Below, piece after piece: positions 6,465-62,004 of a stretch of 64,000 bases of DNA. Below the pieces are notes generated by a model. The model worked only from the letters and a program-made list of their open reading frames with translations, was not told the DNA's origin and made no database searches. The position numbers and the translations under genes were made by a program. The stretch's first letter is position 1, and every line of letters starts with the position of its first letter. Source of the DNA: an uncultured Phycisphaerales bacterium (GTDB lineage: Bacteria; Planctomycetota; Phycisphaerae; Tepidisphaerales; Tepidisphaeraceae); assembly GCA_903871935.1 (NCBI GenBank), contig CAIQIQ010000111.1, forward strand, positions 1 through 64,000. The letters are read 5' to 3'.

Positions 6465-7781
6465 GGGCGACATAACCTCCTGTTTAGCTGACTGGCGGCG
6501 CAAGATAACGTCCCGGTGGTTCTGGTTACCATAGCTGCACAAGTACCTGATCGCAATGGTGTTGCGGCGGCAGACACGCCCGCCAACGCGGGGCCAAAAC
6601 GGAATCCTGAGCGGCCGGGGGAAATCAAGTCGGTCCGGGGGTGGCACGGATAATGAAAAGGGAAGCGTGACATTCCACTATTTGGCGATCACATCGTCAA
6701 CCGCTCCGGCGAACGAGACGAGTACGCGGTACGCACCGAGACGGGGCAGGCAGTGCCCATCTCCACCGATCCATCAGAACAGCGTTGTTTTCTGTGACTT
6801 CTGTGCTTTCTCGTGGCCAATCTTCTCCGTGCATTGCCCGTTCCTGGCTTGGAACTCCAAGCCGCTGGCGATCACTCTTCTTGGTGTCTTCGCACTTTGC
6901 CGCAGGGCCCGTTCTGTTAGCAATTCGCATGCCAGAGTACCCTAAACAAAATACGAATTTTGTTCGCCGCTCGTAAACCCTTATAAAACCTCAATCTCTT
7001 CTTATCGAATCTTGCAACAACCCCCTTATTATGGGGGGACGTGCTTTTTCGCGCGCCTCCGATCTTTGACAACCGAATACCCGTGCCACCACGACGCCCA
7101 AGGACTCACCGTGGGTCTCCATCCTCGCCCCCACCACAAGGCCAGCGATGTCACACTTTGTCACTCGATGTCATACATTTTGGGCGCCGCTCGCGTGCTC
7201 ACTCTTCACGCATCAGGACGATGTCCCAGATTGTCTCAAAATGTCCCACATTATTTCGCTCGGCCAAGGCGAAACCGAACCTGAGCATCTTCCTTCGCGT
7301 CATCGCGGCGCAGTTTACCCGCTGTGGCGGGCGGCCGCCGCGGCGCTTTTCGCCCGTGCTATCCCGGCTGCGCCGGGACTACACTTTGCTACACTTCCGC
7401 TACTAAAAGCGACACGTTGCTACACCCGTGCTACACGCGAACAGCCACCTGGAGTTGCTGTAACTCCAGCAGCCACCAGCGTTTCCCAACACATGCGCCA
7501 CCGCCGATGCTACACCCCCCCCAATCACGCGCCCCCTCCGCATTGCCTCTCGAATTGTAAGTTACTGTATCCGCACCGCTTACGTTCCCACGCCCCATCA
7601 TCTCCTCCCTGCTACATGTAGCACGCCCGCCTGACATCACAATGCACACACGAACCTGAGCATGTTCCTTCCCCATTTTGCATTTGCGCAGCGAACCTGA
7701 GCACCTTCATCGCTCTGCTCCGTCTTTCTGCTTTTGGCCTTTTAGCTTTTCCCGAAAGGGGCCTGTACTATTGGCTAACCC
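6465..7781. other. Long intergenic stretch without a convincing gene
   Basis: No frame here has the codon pattern of its neighbours; the open frames are short and change phase. Positions 6780-6900 hold a low-complexity tract of reiterated TTCTGTG/TTCTTGG words. From 6940 onward it is occupied by the repeat element described separately. The last 70 bases lead into the gene at 7782 without a clear Shine-Dalgarno sequence. Confidence 0.6.
6940..7707 (+). repeat. Intergenic repeat element L, copy 0
   Basis: Starts with CCTAAACAAAATACGA, then CGCCGCTCGTAAACCC and CTTATCGAATCTTGCA, then a small hairpin CCCCC-TTATTAT-GGGGG at 7021-7037 and TTTGACAACCGAATAC near 7080. The same order occurs at 57128-57285. 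The rest is a mosaic of reiterated short words: TGTCCCA/TGTCACA (7148-7250), TGCTACAC four or five times (7389-7615) and three copies of CGAACCTGAGCAYSTT (7276, 7651, 7692). It points toward the gene starting at 7782. Confidence 0.7.
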
Positions 7782-37282: not shown

Positions 37283-37600
37283 GGTAGAGGAACGTGTTTC
37301 TTCTCAGTCGAATACCCATACTCCTGCCAGATAAGTAGGAAATGCCACCCGAACTGCGCACACGATCTTGAGCGCCTTTGTCGCAATCGGTCGCGCGGAT
37401 TACCGAATGCCGCCAACTATGCACACGAACCTGAGCACCTTTCCCACTTCCTCCGTGCCTACATTCCGGACTTATCCACAATCCCATCGAACTTGATCAT
37501 TTCTTCCTGCGATTCCGTTCTAACTCCTCGTTAACACAAAACATAGCACCATGGTGGTATCCCCTCGAACAACCTGCGCACCTGCTACTTATCCACAGCC
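37283..37600 (+). repeat. Intergenic repeat element L, copy 1
   Basis: Contains a short form of the conserved core (GGAACGTGTTTCTTCTC then TCGAATACCCAT at 37296-37322), copies of the word at 37355-37379 (TGCGCACACGATCTTGAGC) and 37420-37442 (CACACGAACCTGAGCACCTT), and two TTATCCACA sites at 37472 and 37589. The second site is preceded by GGTATCCCCTCGAACAACC and GCGCACCTG, as in copy 2 at 57668-57708. The rest of 37601-37885 holds nothing recognisable besides the gdhA leader. Confidence 0.7.
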
Positions 37601-40358: not shown

Positions 40359-40493
40359 AACTTCAGTTTCGTGTTGCGCAATCCGCATGCCGTGGTGATG
40401 CAATGCAGATCGTATGGCCCGGCCGTCCTGAGTATCGCGAAGACGGTACCGAAATACGGCACAGGCGAACAGTTTCGCCCGCACCATCGCTTG

Positions 40494-40757
40494 AAGGCAG
40501 GTCTTCTGGCTCGGGATTGAGCTTTATCGAGCCGGCGATCCCTGATCTGGCCGATTCGACTCTCCGGGGCCTTCCCATCCTGATCACAGGACAGTGGCGA
40601 CCGGACTTCTGCGGGGTTGCCATCGCTGGCAGACCCGTATCCCTTACAGCGGCGCGTCCGCGGCGGGTTTTCACCGCACTTCCCATTGCCTTGCCCGTGA
40701 ACACATCACCGGCTAAGGCAGGCGTACTGCCACCTTCAGCGTCAGGGAGAGAAGGTT
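40494..40757 (-). ncRNA. Cobalamin (B12) riboswitch
   Basis: Read on the minus strand, the conserved 3' B12 box AGCCAGAAGACCTGCC is at 40496-40511. Upstream in the right order are GGGAAGTGCGGTGAAAACC near 40684-40666, a GCCGCTGTAA segment, and CGCCACTGT near 40600-40591. These are the core elements of the adenosylcobalamin-binding aptamer. The length, about 260 bases, is within the normal range for aptamers with enlarged peripheral arms. It sits divergently from rex and upstream of the pseudopilin gene at 39404-40261. Confidence 0.9.
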
Positions 40758-43098: not shown

Positions 43099-43257
43099 AG
43101 CGCAGGGGCGCGAATGATCTTTTCCGGTGTAAGGTGTTGTGGGGCAAGTGGTTAGCGATTTGGCTGGGGAGGAGGTGCGCATGGTTCCTTTTGGTCATTG
43201 GTCCTTCGTTGCCGGTCATTCGTCCTGAACCTGTACTGAGGGCGAGCGACCCATTTG

Positions 43258-43455
43258 AAAAGATGCTCAGGTTCGCGTACGCAGTCGGCGGCGGTGTGTT
43301 ACGCTGCTTACCGTCTTTGGCAAAGATGCTCAGGTTGGTGTGCGCATCTCGGCGATCATTGCCTACTCGTCCGGTAGGAAAAGTCGTATTCGGTTGTGAA
43401 ATAGCGTGGCCGGGGTACGGCCGGGAGAGTGAAAAACATCCCTCCATAAGGGTCG
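43258..43455 (-). repeat. Intergenic repeat element L, copy 3 (minus orientation)
   Basis: Two copies of AAAGATGCTCAGGTT start at 43258 and 43322, 64 bp apart; their complement is the AACCTGAGCATCTT word of the other L loci. At 43386-43454 the minus strand reads ACCCTTATGGAGGG, then GTTTTTCACTCTCCCGGCCG, then TATTTCACAACCGAATAC, matching the core at 57210-57283. The element points toward the aminotransferase gene. The remainder, 43456-43735, shows no gene. Confidence 0.7.
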
Positions 43456-53978: not shown

Positions 53979-54320
53979 CTATCTGGCTGCCATCACTTGC
54001 ACCACATCATCCTCAGGGCGCCACCATGCGGCCACCGGACCGGGCGCAGCGACGGTTTGGAAACCCAGCCACGCAGCGCAGGTGGCGATGGCGTGATGGG
54101 CCTGTTCGGGGGAATCGAAGACATCCTCGATCTTCTTCTGCACCTTCGGGTAGCGCCACGCGCGCAGAAGACTGCCCACCGTATAGAGGCGCAAGACGTG
54201 CTGCAGGGGCAGCGCATATTCGCTCTTGATGACACAGGAGAGTGGCAGTTCCAGAATAACGCTGCGCTTGTCGTCTGAGGTTGTATCCAGCCCGTCGTGT
54301 GTGACTTGTTGTGCTCGCAT
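53979..54320 (-). CDS. Small protein of unknown function
   Basis: About 113 residues starting at the ATG at 54320, five bases after GGAAGG. The sequence SVILELPLSCVIKSEYALPLQ through FQTVAAPGPVAAWWRPEDD has normal codon and residue composition and no membrane segment. An ORF of similar length in another phase is less convincing. No family is recognised. It converges with the TPR gene. Confidence 0.5.
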   Translation of the reverse strand: MRAQQVTHDGLDTTSDDKRSVILELPLSCVIKSEYALPLQHVLRLYTVGSLLRAWRYPKVQKKIEDVFDSPEQAHHAIATCAAWLGFQTVAAPGPVAAWWRPEDDVVQVMAAR

Positions 54321-54537
54321 TTTCGCCTTCCGTGGCTCCAGACAGTTGCGTTCGCCGTCTCGGTCCGTCGAGACGGCCGCGTCACTGTTATGCTCCACAC
54401 TACATCCTGTGGACATAAAGTCAATCAAATACTAGATATGCGACAGGGCGGAGGGCGGGCATGGACGTCTTCTCTGGCAACGACAGGACGCCACAGCCGT
54501 TGATGCAACATAGTTGCCCGCGCCTGCCGGTTGTTAT

Positions 54538-55873: not shown

Positions 55874-56144
55874 AGGCCCTGTCTGAAAAGCCCATGGCCC
55901 CACGATGGGCCGGAAAGGGCCTGGATGCGAGGCACTGCGACGAAGCAGTATTTGAATACTACGGCGAGGAGCAGTAACGAAGCAGACGGGCCTTTTCCGG
56001 CCCACCCTTCGGGCGGCTTGGAATCGACTCATCTGCGGCGGCGCATCGGCTCAAAGGTTCCACCGACCCGGCTTTCGCCGATGCTTCTTGCATCTGAGGC
56101 GATTCCAAGCCGTCGTGGGGCCATGGGTTTTTCAGACAGGGCCT
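55874..56144. mobile_element. MITE of 271 bp, family B
   Basis: The ends AGGCCCTGTCTGAAAA and TTTTCAGACAGGGCCT begin inverted repeats of about 32 bp that extend through CCCATGGCCCCACGA with one mismatch. Inside lie two nested palindromes: GGGCCGGAAAGGGCC with GGGCCTTTTCCGGCCC, and GGCTTGGAATCG with CGATTCCAAGCC, plus CAGTATT-tg-AATACT. No transposase is encoded, so mobility would need enzyme from an autonomous element elsewhere. Confidence 0.85.
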
Positions 56145-57127: not shown

Positions 57128-57711
57128 ACCTAAAAAAAATGCGAGTTTTTCCCGCCGCTCATAACCCCTTGTCAAACCTCAATCTCCTCTTATCGAATCT
57201 TGCAGACGCACCCTTATTATGGGGGAACGTTCTTCCCCTTCCTCTCGGCCGTCCCAGGTCGACGTTATTTGACAACCGAATAACTGCGCCCCAAAAGCCC
57301 ACCGACTGCGTCGGTGGGTATCGAAGAGAATGCAGCGCGCGACACTTTCACATGTTTTCTGCACTAACTTGCACCCAAGTTCCTGTCCCACCGAGACTTA
57401 ACCCCGCGCGACATCGCTGCACGTATGCGCGCGACACTTTTGCCCCCTTCCCAACTCCTGCTCCCTCCATTGCTTACAGCACTCCCCGCCGCGGCCAAAT
57501 CGCCCGTATCGGCCCAATGTCGCGCGCTGCCAGCTCGTGTATGGTCGCTCATCCCTCCTCACCTATTGAGTGGATGACCGACTTATCCACAATCGATCAC
57601 AACTTGCGCACCTCCTCCCCACATCTCGACCTAACACCTTATCCCTGCAGCACATAGCTTCATGGGGGTATCCCGCCGAGAACTTGCGCACCTGTTCACT
57701 TATCCACAACC
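57128..57711 (+). repeat. Intergenic repeat element L, copy 2
   Basis: Carries the whole conserved block: CCTAAAAAAAATGCGAG, CGCCGCTCATAACCCC, CTTATCGAATCTTGCA, the hairpin CCC-TTATTAT-GGG at 57211-57223, CTCTCGGCCGTCCC and TTATTTGACAACCGAATA near 57283. Then come reiterated words GCGCGCGACACTTT (57337 and 57426) and AACTTGCGCACCT (57601 and 57681), and two TTATCCACA sites at 57583 and 57700. It is divergent from the DUF3303 gene and points toward the gene at 57767. Confidence 0.75.
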
Positions 57712-60960: not shown

Positions 60961-62004
60961 GTGTGCACTGTGACCACAATCCCAGACCCAACACGAGCAG
61001 CGCCGGCGCCGGGAGTAAGCCCGCTTCGCATCGGTTCCGTGCAACTGGCGACGAACCTGCTGGTAGCGCCGATCGCTGGCTATACCGATCTGGCGTATCG
61101 CCTGATCGCCCGGCGGCTGGGCGGTGTGGGGCTGGCGTGTACCGATCTGCTCTGTCCGCAAGGTGTGCTGCGGCAGACTGCACACACGCGTATCTTGATG
61201 CAGACGTGCGAGGAGGATTCGCCACTGTGCTACCAACTCTTCGGCGCTGAGAATGATCCGTTGGTCGAGGCAGCCAGGTGGTGCGTTGATCACGGCGCGC
61301 GGATCATCGATATCAACATGGGTTGCCCGGCCGACAAGGTCACGCAGCGACGCGGGGGATCAGCGCTCTTGTGCGACCCGGATGGCACGGTGCGAATGGT
61401 GGAGAAGATCGTCGCCGCCATCCCCAATACGCCGGTGACGGCCAAGCTTCGCCTGGGTTGGGATGACCAGCACATCGTCGCCCCGTATCTCGCCCGGCGG
61501 CTGGAAGAGGTGGGGGTGCAGCTTATCACCATTCATGGCCGGACGACCGAAATGGGTTTCAGCGGATCGGCGCGGCTGGATGGGATTGCGGAGGTGGTGT
61601 CGGCCGTTGGGCGCATTCCTGTGGTCGGCAACGGCGACATCCGAACTCCGCAGGATGCCGCCCGCATGATGCAGGTTACCCGGTGTGCCGGCGTGATGAT
61701 CGGGCGCGGGGCCCTCTCAGCGCCGTGGCTCTATCGCGATACATGGGAACATCTCAGTGGCCGATCAATTCCGACGCCCCCGACGCTGGAGGAGAAGTGC
61801 CAGATCCTGCGGAACCACTTTGATCTGCACGTGCAGCTCCGCGGCGAGCACTCGGCCGCCTGCGAATTCCGCACGCGGATCAGTTGGTATGCGAAAGAAA
61901 TGCACCCATGCCGGCCGCTGAAGGATGCCCTGCGACAATTGGATTCCGCCGTCCGCTTCCATTGCGCTGTCGACGATTTCCTTCGCTGGCGGGCGAGCAT
62001 GTAG
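60961..62004 (+). CDS. tRNA-dihydrouridine synthase
   Basis: A 347-residue flavoenzyme of the Dus family that reduces uridines in the tRNA D loop. LLVAPIAGYTDLAYRLIAR near residue 35, INMGCPADKVTQRRGGSALL near 118 with the catalytic Cys in MGCP, KLRLGWDD near 160, IHGRTTEMGFSG near 190, VVGNGDIRTP near 222 and MIGRGALSAPW near 244 are all in place. Start is a GTG at 60961, or a second GTG at 60970. It lies two bases after the UroD-like stop. Confidence 0.9.
   Translation: MCTVTTIPDPTRAAPAPGVSPLRIGSVQLATNLLVAPIAGYTDLAYRLIARRLGGVGLACTDLLCPQGVLRQTAHTRILMQTCEEDSPLCYQLFGAENDPLVEAARWCVDHGARIIDINMGCPADKVTQRRGGSALLCDPDGTVRMVEKIVAAIPNTPVTAKLRLGWDDQHIVAPYLARRLEEVGVQLITIHGRTTEMGFSGSARLDGIAEVVSAVGRIPVVGNGDIRTPQDAARMMQVTRCAGVMIGRGALSAPWLYRDTWEHLSGRSIPTPPTLEEKCQILRNHFDLHVQLRGEHSAACEFRTRISWYAKEMHPCRPLKDALRQLDSAVRFHCAVDDFLRWRASM

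Follow-up and report, generated by a model that had tools for sequence, protein, structure and literature searches.

The paired TTATCCACA sites found in the 64-kb window (the whole stretch of DNA analysed, 64,000 nucleotides) are copies of one intergenic module, which forms one end of a larger non-coding element. This module is repeated about 150 times in the genome that holds the window (6.32 Mb, 172 contigs), its sites are arranged in a constant order with a prevailing distance of 117 bp between the two 9-mers, and the sequence upstream carries a boxA of the type present in the ribosomal RNA leader of the same genome. The module was found in none of the other genomes searched. Judging from its gene content, the host is probably a planctomycete. 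The whole composite is about 0.5-0.8 kb long, with the module at its right end and a left end that is not sharply defined. The explanation that we prefer, with a confidence evenly balanced between its being right and wrong, is a composite, dispersed, non-autonomous and lineage-specific non-coding element that has the pair as its right-hand module.

Paired sites in the window and genome-wide family

The earlier note had reported four TTATCCACA sites (37472, 37589, 57583 and 57700), forming two pairs with the same 117-bp spacing and matching flanks. All four positions, which are on the forward strand, and both spacings were confirmed, and the flanks of the two copies, C and D, were aligned by blastn with 72% identity over 134 positions (E 1e-11). 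The expected number of sites was 0.17 per shuffle of the window, and none of 100 shuffles reached four. The opinion that this is a duplicated module and not a chance occurrence is strongly supported. The earlier note was too modest in this respect: the pair constitutes one module of a family of about 150 copies, located within a longer composite element.

The genome-wide listing of TTATCCACA with its spacings, which had been proposed as a check, revealed 268 sites (130 + 138), compared to 15 (11 + 4) for the reversed word. Exact pairs with a gap of 98-118 bp were found 89 times, 72 of them at exactly 117 bp, and the reversed-word control gave none. A sequence-only model of the 137-bp module (R1) was built from these 89 exact-pair copies and produced 150 matches in the genome, some of them lacking one box (left or right) or both. 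Flanks were studied for 148 matches, C92:49711 and C76:2922 being left out. When up to two mismatches were allowed, both boxes were present in 114 copies, only the right one in 21, only the left one in 2 and neither in 11. The pair spacing was kept in the family, with 117 bp in 85 of the 114 two-box copies, 116 bp in 15, 118 bp in 5, 115 bp in 2 and other values once each.

Selection for two exact boxes makes the boxes of the 89 copies in alignment A1 invariant by construction, so that a fair test of box conservation is given by the 59 other copies found with the model. The right box was present with at most one mismatch in 45 of these 59 copies, versus about 1.3% of random stretches, and the left box in 20.

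Table 1. Position of the module copies, boxA sites and associated repeats in the window.
Feature	Position	Strand	Remarks
Right module, copy D	57578..57710	+	Model R1 match, 96 bits, E 6.8e-27
TTATCCACA box 1, copy D	57583..57591	+	Sequence search
13-bp repeat 1 (AACTTGCGCACCT), copy D	57601..57613	+	
13-bp repeat 2 (AACTTGCGCACCT), copy D	57681..57693	+	80 bp after repeat 1
TTATCCACA box 2, copy D	57700..57708	+	Sequence search
CCCTTATTATGGGGG, promoter-like or hairpin-like block	57211..57225	+	Upstream part of copy D
boxA, copy D	57264..57282	+	Compare rRNA leader boxA
Hairpin after boxA, copy D	57297..57319	+	
Right module, copy C	37467..37599	+	Model R1 match, 88.5 bits, E 1.5e-24
TTATCCACA box 1, copy C	37472..37480	+	Sequence search
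13-bp repeat 1, degenerate (AACTTGATCATTT), copy C	37490..37502	+	Read from sequence; position from family spacing
13-bp repeat 2 (AACCTGCGCACCT), copy C	37571..37583	+	
TTATCCACA box 2, copy C	37589..37597	+	Sequence search
Degenerate boxA-like site, copy C	37296..37314	+	Weak, 7 mismatches to anchor
boxA, composite A	7061..7079	+	Composite without right module
10-bp-period triple repeat TGTCACA / TGTCACT / TGTCATA, composite A	7149..7175	+	Read from sequence
10-bp-period triple repeat TGTCCCA / TGTCTCA / TGTCCCA, composite A	7222..7248	+	Read from sequence
boxA, composite B	43387..43405	-	
Partial right module, composite B	43128..43186	-	Without TTATCCACA; limits approximate; read from sequence

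Anatomy of the right module

The conserved sites of the module follow the order TTATCCACA, AACYTGCGCAYCT, AACYTGCGCAYCT, TTATCCACA, and the two 13-bp repeats are direct and located 80-81 bp apart. In the conservation profile of 72 copies of equal length, the limits of the module are abrupt, at the step from GGAG into TTATCCACA on one side and at the end of ACTTATCCACA on the other, with background level outside. The 13-mers are conserved in this profile to a degree comparable to the 9-mer boxes, and the interior also contains a CCTAAC block and a AGGGGGTACCCCC-like palindrome with variable stretches between them. Mean pairwise identity between the boxes was 68%, and a single pair of copies out of 2556 exceeded 90%. 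Among the 108 columns between the boxes, 25 were at least 95% conserved, clustered in islands, and 18 were below 60%, all these figures being computed from 72 copies that had been selected beforehand for exact boxes 117 bp apart. The sequences located directly upstream of the most alike module copies are unrelated.

The distances from box to 13-mer, between 13-mers and from 13-mer to box were (18,81,18) in 65 copies, (18,80,19) in 16 and (18,80,18) in 6. A shift of -1 in the second 13-mer was accompanied by +1 before the second box, which restores the 117 bp (Fisher 2e-10 for the main classes, in a table that omits (17,80,18), (39,80,16) and (18,82,18), found once each, and (18,79,19), found three times). 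Subfamily descent could be an alternative cause of these compensating shifts.

The possibility of a conserved RNA structure was set aside after RNAalifold analysis of 89 right-module copies, in which pairing was confined to the self-complementary TGCGCA shared by the two 13-mers and no covariation was detected, and the right module has therefore been treated as DNA.

Upstream part of the element

The composition of the upstream part was determined in the 131 of 148 copies with at least 700 bp of upstream sequence. A boxA-like site was present in 113 of them and additional 13-mers in 84, with no occurrence of either on the other strand. CRP-like palindromes were found on both strands, as expected of palindromes, and the upstream part also includes hairpins and 7-bp low-complexity repeats. 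No consensus sigma-70 promoter was found in copy D.

The boxA of the elements is GCTATTTGACAACCGAATACC or a close variant, for example GCTATTTGACAAGTGAATACC. In the rRNA leader of this genome (GCTCTTTGACAAGTGAATA), the boxA GCTCTTTGACAAGTGAATAGTCGG precedes the only 16S gene found by about 0.4 kb, and the GCTCTTTGACAA-type 19-nt boxA of the elements is nearly identical to it. The same boxA was located 394-444 nt before the 16S gene in five out of eight loci examined in relatives of the same family. The rRNA boxA is bound by Nus factors according to PMC4807359, and PMC7862264 describes boxA as frequent before long non-coding RNAs and CRISPR arrays. On these grounds, the upstream part resembles the beginning of a transcript that would be antiterminated and remain untranslated. 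The elements differ from a ribosomal leader in that no rRNA follows the boxA, which occurs in more than 80 places and precedes direct-repeat arrays. They share with boxA-led CRISPR leaders and non-coding RNAs a boxA before long untranslated sequence, but no CRISPR repeats or cas genes were seen in them; identical 24-40-nt repeats with unique spacers define a CRISPR array, whereas the 13-bp repeats described here are 80 bp apart and their spacers are related. For the elements, Rfam covariance models gave no match in the window or in 10 element loci.

After boxA, some copies display three units with a 10-bp period, in which the inner bases are the same within an element and different between elements (TGTCACA, TGCCCCA, TGTCCCA and TGCTACA in this genome). 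Such triples were found 23 times in 131 copies, versus 0.2 in shuffles, and three identical inner triplets were present in 24 out of 50 triple matches (0 out of 3 in shuffles). Two of these arrays are present in composite A of the window (Table 1). The hairpin that follows boxA is strong in some copies, with a mean z of only -0.7, and the region before boxA showed a mean folding z of -1.7 (118 copies and mononucleotide shuffles in both cases).

Low-complexity repeats of 7 bp with several units (among them GGTCATT, TCCGCAA, TCATCCT and CTGACTT) are often located just before the TTATCCACA module, as in loci L004, L023 and L031, and lag 7 was prominent in 24 of the 113 elements of this genome. 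A cobalamin riboswitch (61.4 bits) was also located in the window, at 40479-40728 on the reverse strand.

Elements in related genomes

Searches for the TTATCCACA module in 25 members of the family gave only three matches at chance level (E 0.03-0.05), and 396 other genomes of the class gave none. An exact-pattern search did not find the module in genome_contigs (84,980 species, own records possibly excluded) or in viral contigs. The boxA with at most one mismatch was present 83 times in this genome, 65 times in the relative G022, 18 in G021, 14 in G005 and 0-4 in the other relatives. The boxA loci read were 20 out of 65 in G022, 16 out of 18 in G021 and all 14 in G005, and they revealed that boxA-led elements with 10-bp repeats of their own are dispersed in G022 and G021 and, less clearly, in G005. 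In the G022 elements (20 of the 65 places), boxA is preceded by the inverted repeat GTTGCGC...GCGCAGC and followed by period-10 repeats of the ATGGTGCA type, with the unit TGGTGCA. Elements of G021 contain TGCAAC or TTCAGAAATC-type repeats, and those of G005 are heterogeneous. In a lag test that included 15 elements of G021 and 11 of G005, period 10 was detected in 18/20 elements of G022, 12/15 of G021, 17/113 of this genome and 2/11 of G005, with shuffles near zero; at lag 11, G005 gave 4/11 elements. Copies within a genome are akin, so the independent evidence is this recurrence across genomes with different repeat units.

An RNA structure of the G022 elements was also considered and found not convincing, as covariation in RNAalifold was almost nil and only 1 of 26 pairs had a two-sided change. 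Rfam models gave only sub-threshold matches in 20 G022 loci, all of them outside the element core.

Genomic setting and possible mobility

Gene positions were obtained with a simple codon-usage ORF caller and are uncurated. In the 107 of 148 copies with genes on both sides, the median gap was 633 bp to the upstream gene and 124 bp to the downstream gene, and the upstream gap was the larger one in 101 of the 107. The downstream gene was in sense orientation in 101 copies, convergent in 42 and of unknown orientation in 5, a sense bias (101/143) with p 9e-7; among co-directional neighbours the bias was 33 to 16 (p 0.02). Neutral insertion need not produce such a preference, which stands against the reading as a dispersed element. 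Short downstream gaps and sense orientation would be expected if the elements were cis-regulatory leaders of downstream genes, with a promoter region of multiple inputs multiplied across a large regulon, and the period-10 direct repeats and CRP-like palindromes resemble regulator sites. This explanation is nevertheless unlikely. The 42 convergent copies point into the 3' end of a gene, 16 of 20 sampled G022 elements lie between convergent genes, and no function is common to the 101 sense downstream genes, which comprise 164 Pfam families of at most four members each; a regulon defined by common function was rejected on account of this scatter. In addition, neither boxA nor TTATCCACA was found near the orthologues of two genes that adjoin window composites (0 of 10 stretches in relatives). 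Three of the relatives represented in these ten stretches, G005, G021 and G022, do possess elements at other places; the ten also comprise the dus locus of G001 and, for one G021 locus, a second piece.

The element positions are not conserved between relatives. Only 1 of 39 proteins flanking sampled G022 elements matched an element-flanking protein of this genome, which is about chance by estimate. Comparison of the window with 25 relatives gave no clean empty site, as the flanking genes were not suitably adjacent. G001 has its counterparts of the genes at 53979-54398 and 61039-62004 about 180 bp apart; it thus lacks all of the 6.6 kb around copy D, a gap too wide to single out the element. 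For the element, we identified no target-site duplication, no terminal inverted repeat and no mobilising enzyme, and it is from copy number and non-conserved positions only that its mobility is argued.

DnaA boxes

Binding of DnaA to the 9-mers is plausible, and DnaA would be the natural candidate. Two proteins with a DnaA domain (L179 and L180, G000:C108 and G000:C104) are encoded in the genome, one with GRDHTTV and the other with KRNHSTV in the DNA-binding region, and we take the GRDHTTV motif to mark canonical DnaA. The open frame of the NHSTV-type gene is preceded by three DnaA boxes with one mismatch each.

Two interpretations of the pairs had been offered in the earlier note, ancestry of an element and titration of DnaA in the manner of datA; the former fits a dispersed element and the latter did not gain support, the boxes being 117 bp apart. 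As a minority reading, which we consider rather improbable, the elements would be DnaA reservoirs that titrate or inactivate DnaA and time replication. Most copies do contain two perfect DnaA boxes in a fixed geometry, one of the two DnaA-domain proteins has the GRDHTTV motif, and the genome contains more than 200 consensus boxes, versus 32 in E. coli (PMC11317965). The same paper indicates that E. coli DnaA prefers box pairs 2-3 bp apart, at almost all its sites, and that only 13 of the 32 single consensus boxes are in bound regions, and PMC4585315 describes datA as five boxes and an IHF site. The elements resemble datA and DARS in being non-coding, with several TTATCCACA-type boxes at fixed spacing, but they number about 150, against one or two copies of those loci, each with two single boxes 117 bp apart and no cluster, and other conserved sites are present. 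The comparable conservation of the 13-mers makes the boxes one component among several, 21 copies have no left box and 11 have neither, and no box with up to one mismatch was found in a 3.5-kb stretch around the GRDHTTV dnaA gene.

Comparison with other dispersed repeats

The elements could also be regarded as an ordinary dispersed repeat (MITE, REP/BIME, attC or CRISPR-like) without special features. This would agree with their copy number, with their being non-coding and with their location between genes, and short, dispersed, non-coding units are also characteristic of putative mobile promoters. We judge it improbable, because no terminal inverted repeats or palindromic unit were recognised, the element is a modular mosaic that includes a boxA, there is no attC-like dyad, and Rfam gave no match. 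At the edges of the right module no inverted repeats were found, a result that does not extend to the termini or to a possible target-site duplication of the whole composite, which has no defined left end. Integron attC sites have inverted core sites that form one hairpin, whereas the boxes of the module are direct repeats and TGCGCA is the only segment paired by RNAalifold. None of these families is known to include an rRNA-type boxA or 10-bp repeats that vary in concert. The least probable explanation, an origin-like remnant of an iteron-type replicon scattered by integration, would agree with the anatomy of iteron origins, in which repeated 13-mers in one orientation lie next to DnaA boxes, but the repeats are 80 bp apart in chromosomal, multicopy modules instead of tandem with about 20-bp spacing, and a query with one module copy matched none of the 72,556 plasmid and 50,697 phage records.

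The window also contains a repeat of about 270 bp (55874-56144) with terminal inverted repeats of about 35 bp, present in eight other places of the genome at 81-96% identity, at about 71% in G024 and G020, and as shorter pieces in G011. It is an ordinary MITE-like element, clearly distinct from the boxA/TTATCCACA composite.

Proposed explanation

According to the preferred explanation, a composite and dispersed element, the element would be non-autonomous and would have spread inside this lineage. The left part may be a transcription unit led by the rRNA-type boxA and continued by hairpins and direct-repeat arrays; transcription would proceed rightwards, and a Nus complex at boxA would prevent Rho termination. 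The right part would be a DNA platform with four putative binding sites in fixed order, on which a nucleoprotein complex may be assembled, with DnaA or another protein on the 9-mers and a different protein on the 13-mers. Contacts between these proteins would be established, and the geometry of the complex would fix the 117-bp spacing. Such a complex could have a part in mobility, in the arrest of transcription or in chromosome organisation.

A broader proposal, which is only tentative, is that boxA-led dispersed non-coding transcription units may be an undescribed class in this bacterial family. Each carrier species would have amplified its own version, with private direct-repeat sites after boxA, and in this genome a platform of DnaA boxes and 13-mers with rigid 117-bp geometry would have been added at the right end. 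The repeat units would change in concert, as if they tracked cognate DNA- or RNA-binding proteins.

Bacterial repeats of the dispersed kind are in most cases MITEs or short palindromes. In the present genome, some 150 copies combine an apparent ribosomal-type antitermination signal with a rigid multi-site DNA platform that carries consensus DnaA boxes, and relatives have counterparts with other recognition repeats. A search of the open-licence literature retrieved no description of such a dispersed element with DnaA boxes or boxA. If the boxA works, a large amount of Nus-dependent transcription in this genome goes to RNAs of no assigned role, and if the 9-mers bind DnaA, replication control faces more than 200 extra high-affinity boxes.

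Occurrence of the boxA 19-mer in other bacteria

The same boxA 19-mer precedes repeat arrays in 5 of 80 loci scanned in genome_contigs. Loci L267 (Nitrospirales) and L315 (Deltaproteobacteria), as read from the sequence, have it directly before a cas4-like open frame and a CRISPR-like repeat, as in known CRISPR leaders. In the Deltaproteobacteria MAG CROMO_BS_46_3, a multi-copy sequence contains two tandem boxA-like sites before an open stretch (L242, L276, L279, L282, L297, L298, L301 and L308); it is identical in many contigs, often near contig ends, and is perhaps an insertion element with boxA at its start. The pemK RNA (RF02913) was located about 200 nt after the 19-mer in 4 of 10 loci scanned (L300, L309, L268 and L294, which are Clostridia, Paenibacillus, Enterococcus and Lachnospiraceae records), an arrangement that suggests that pemK RNA is also boxA-led.
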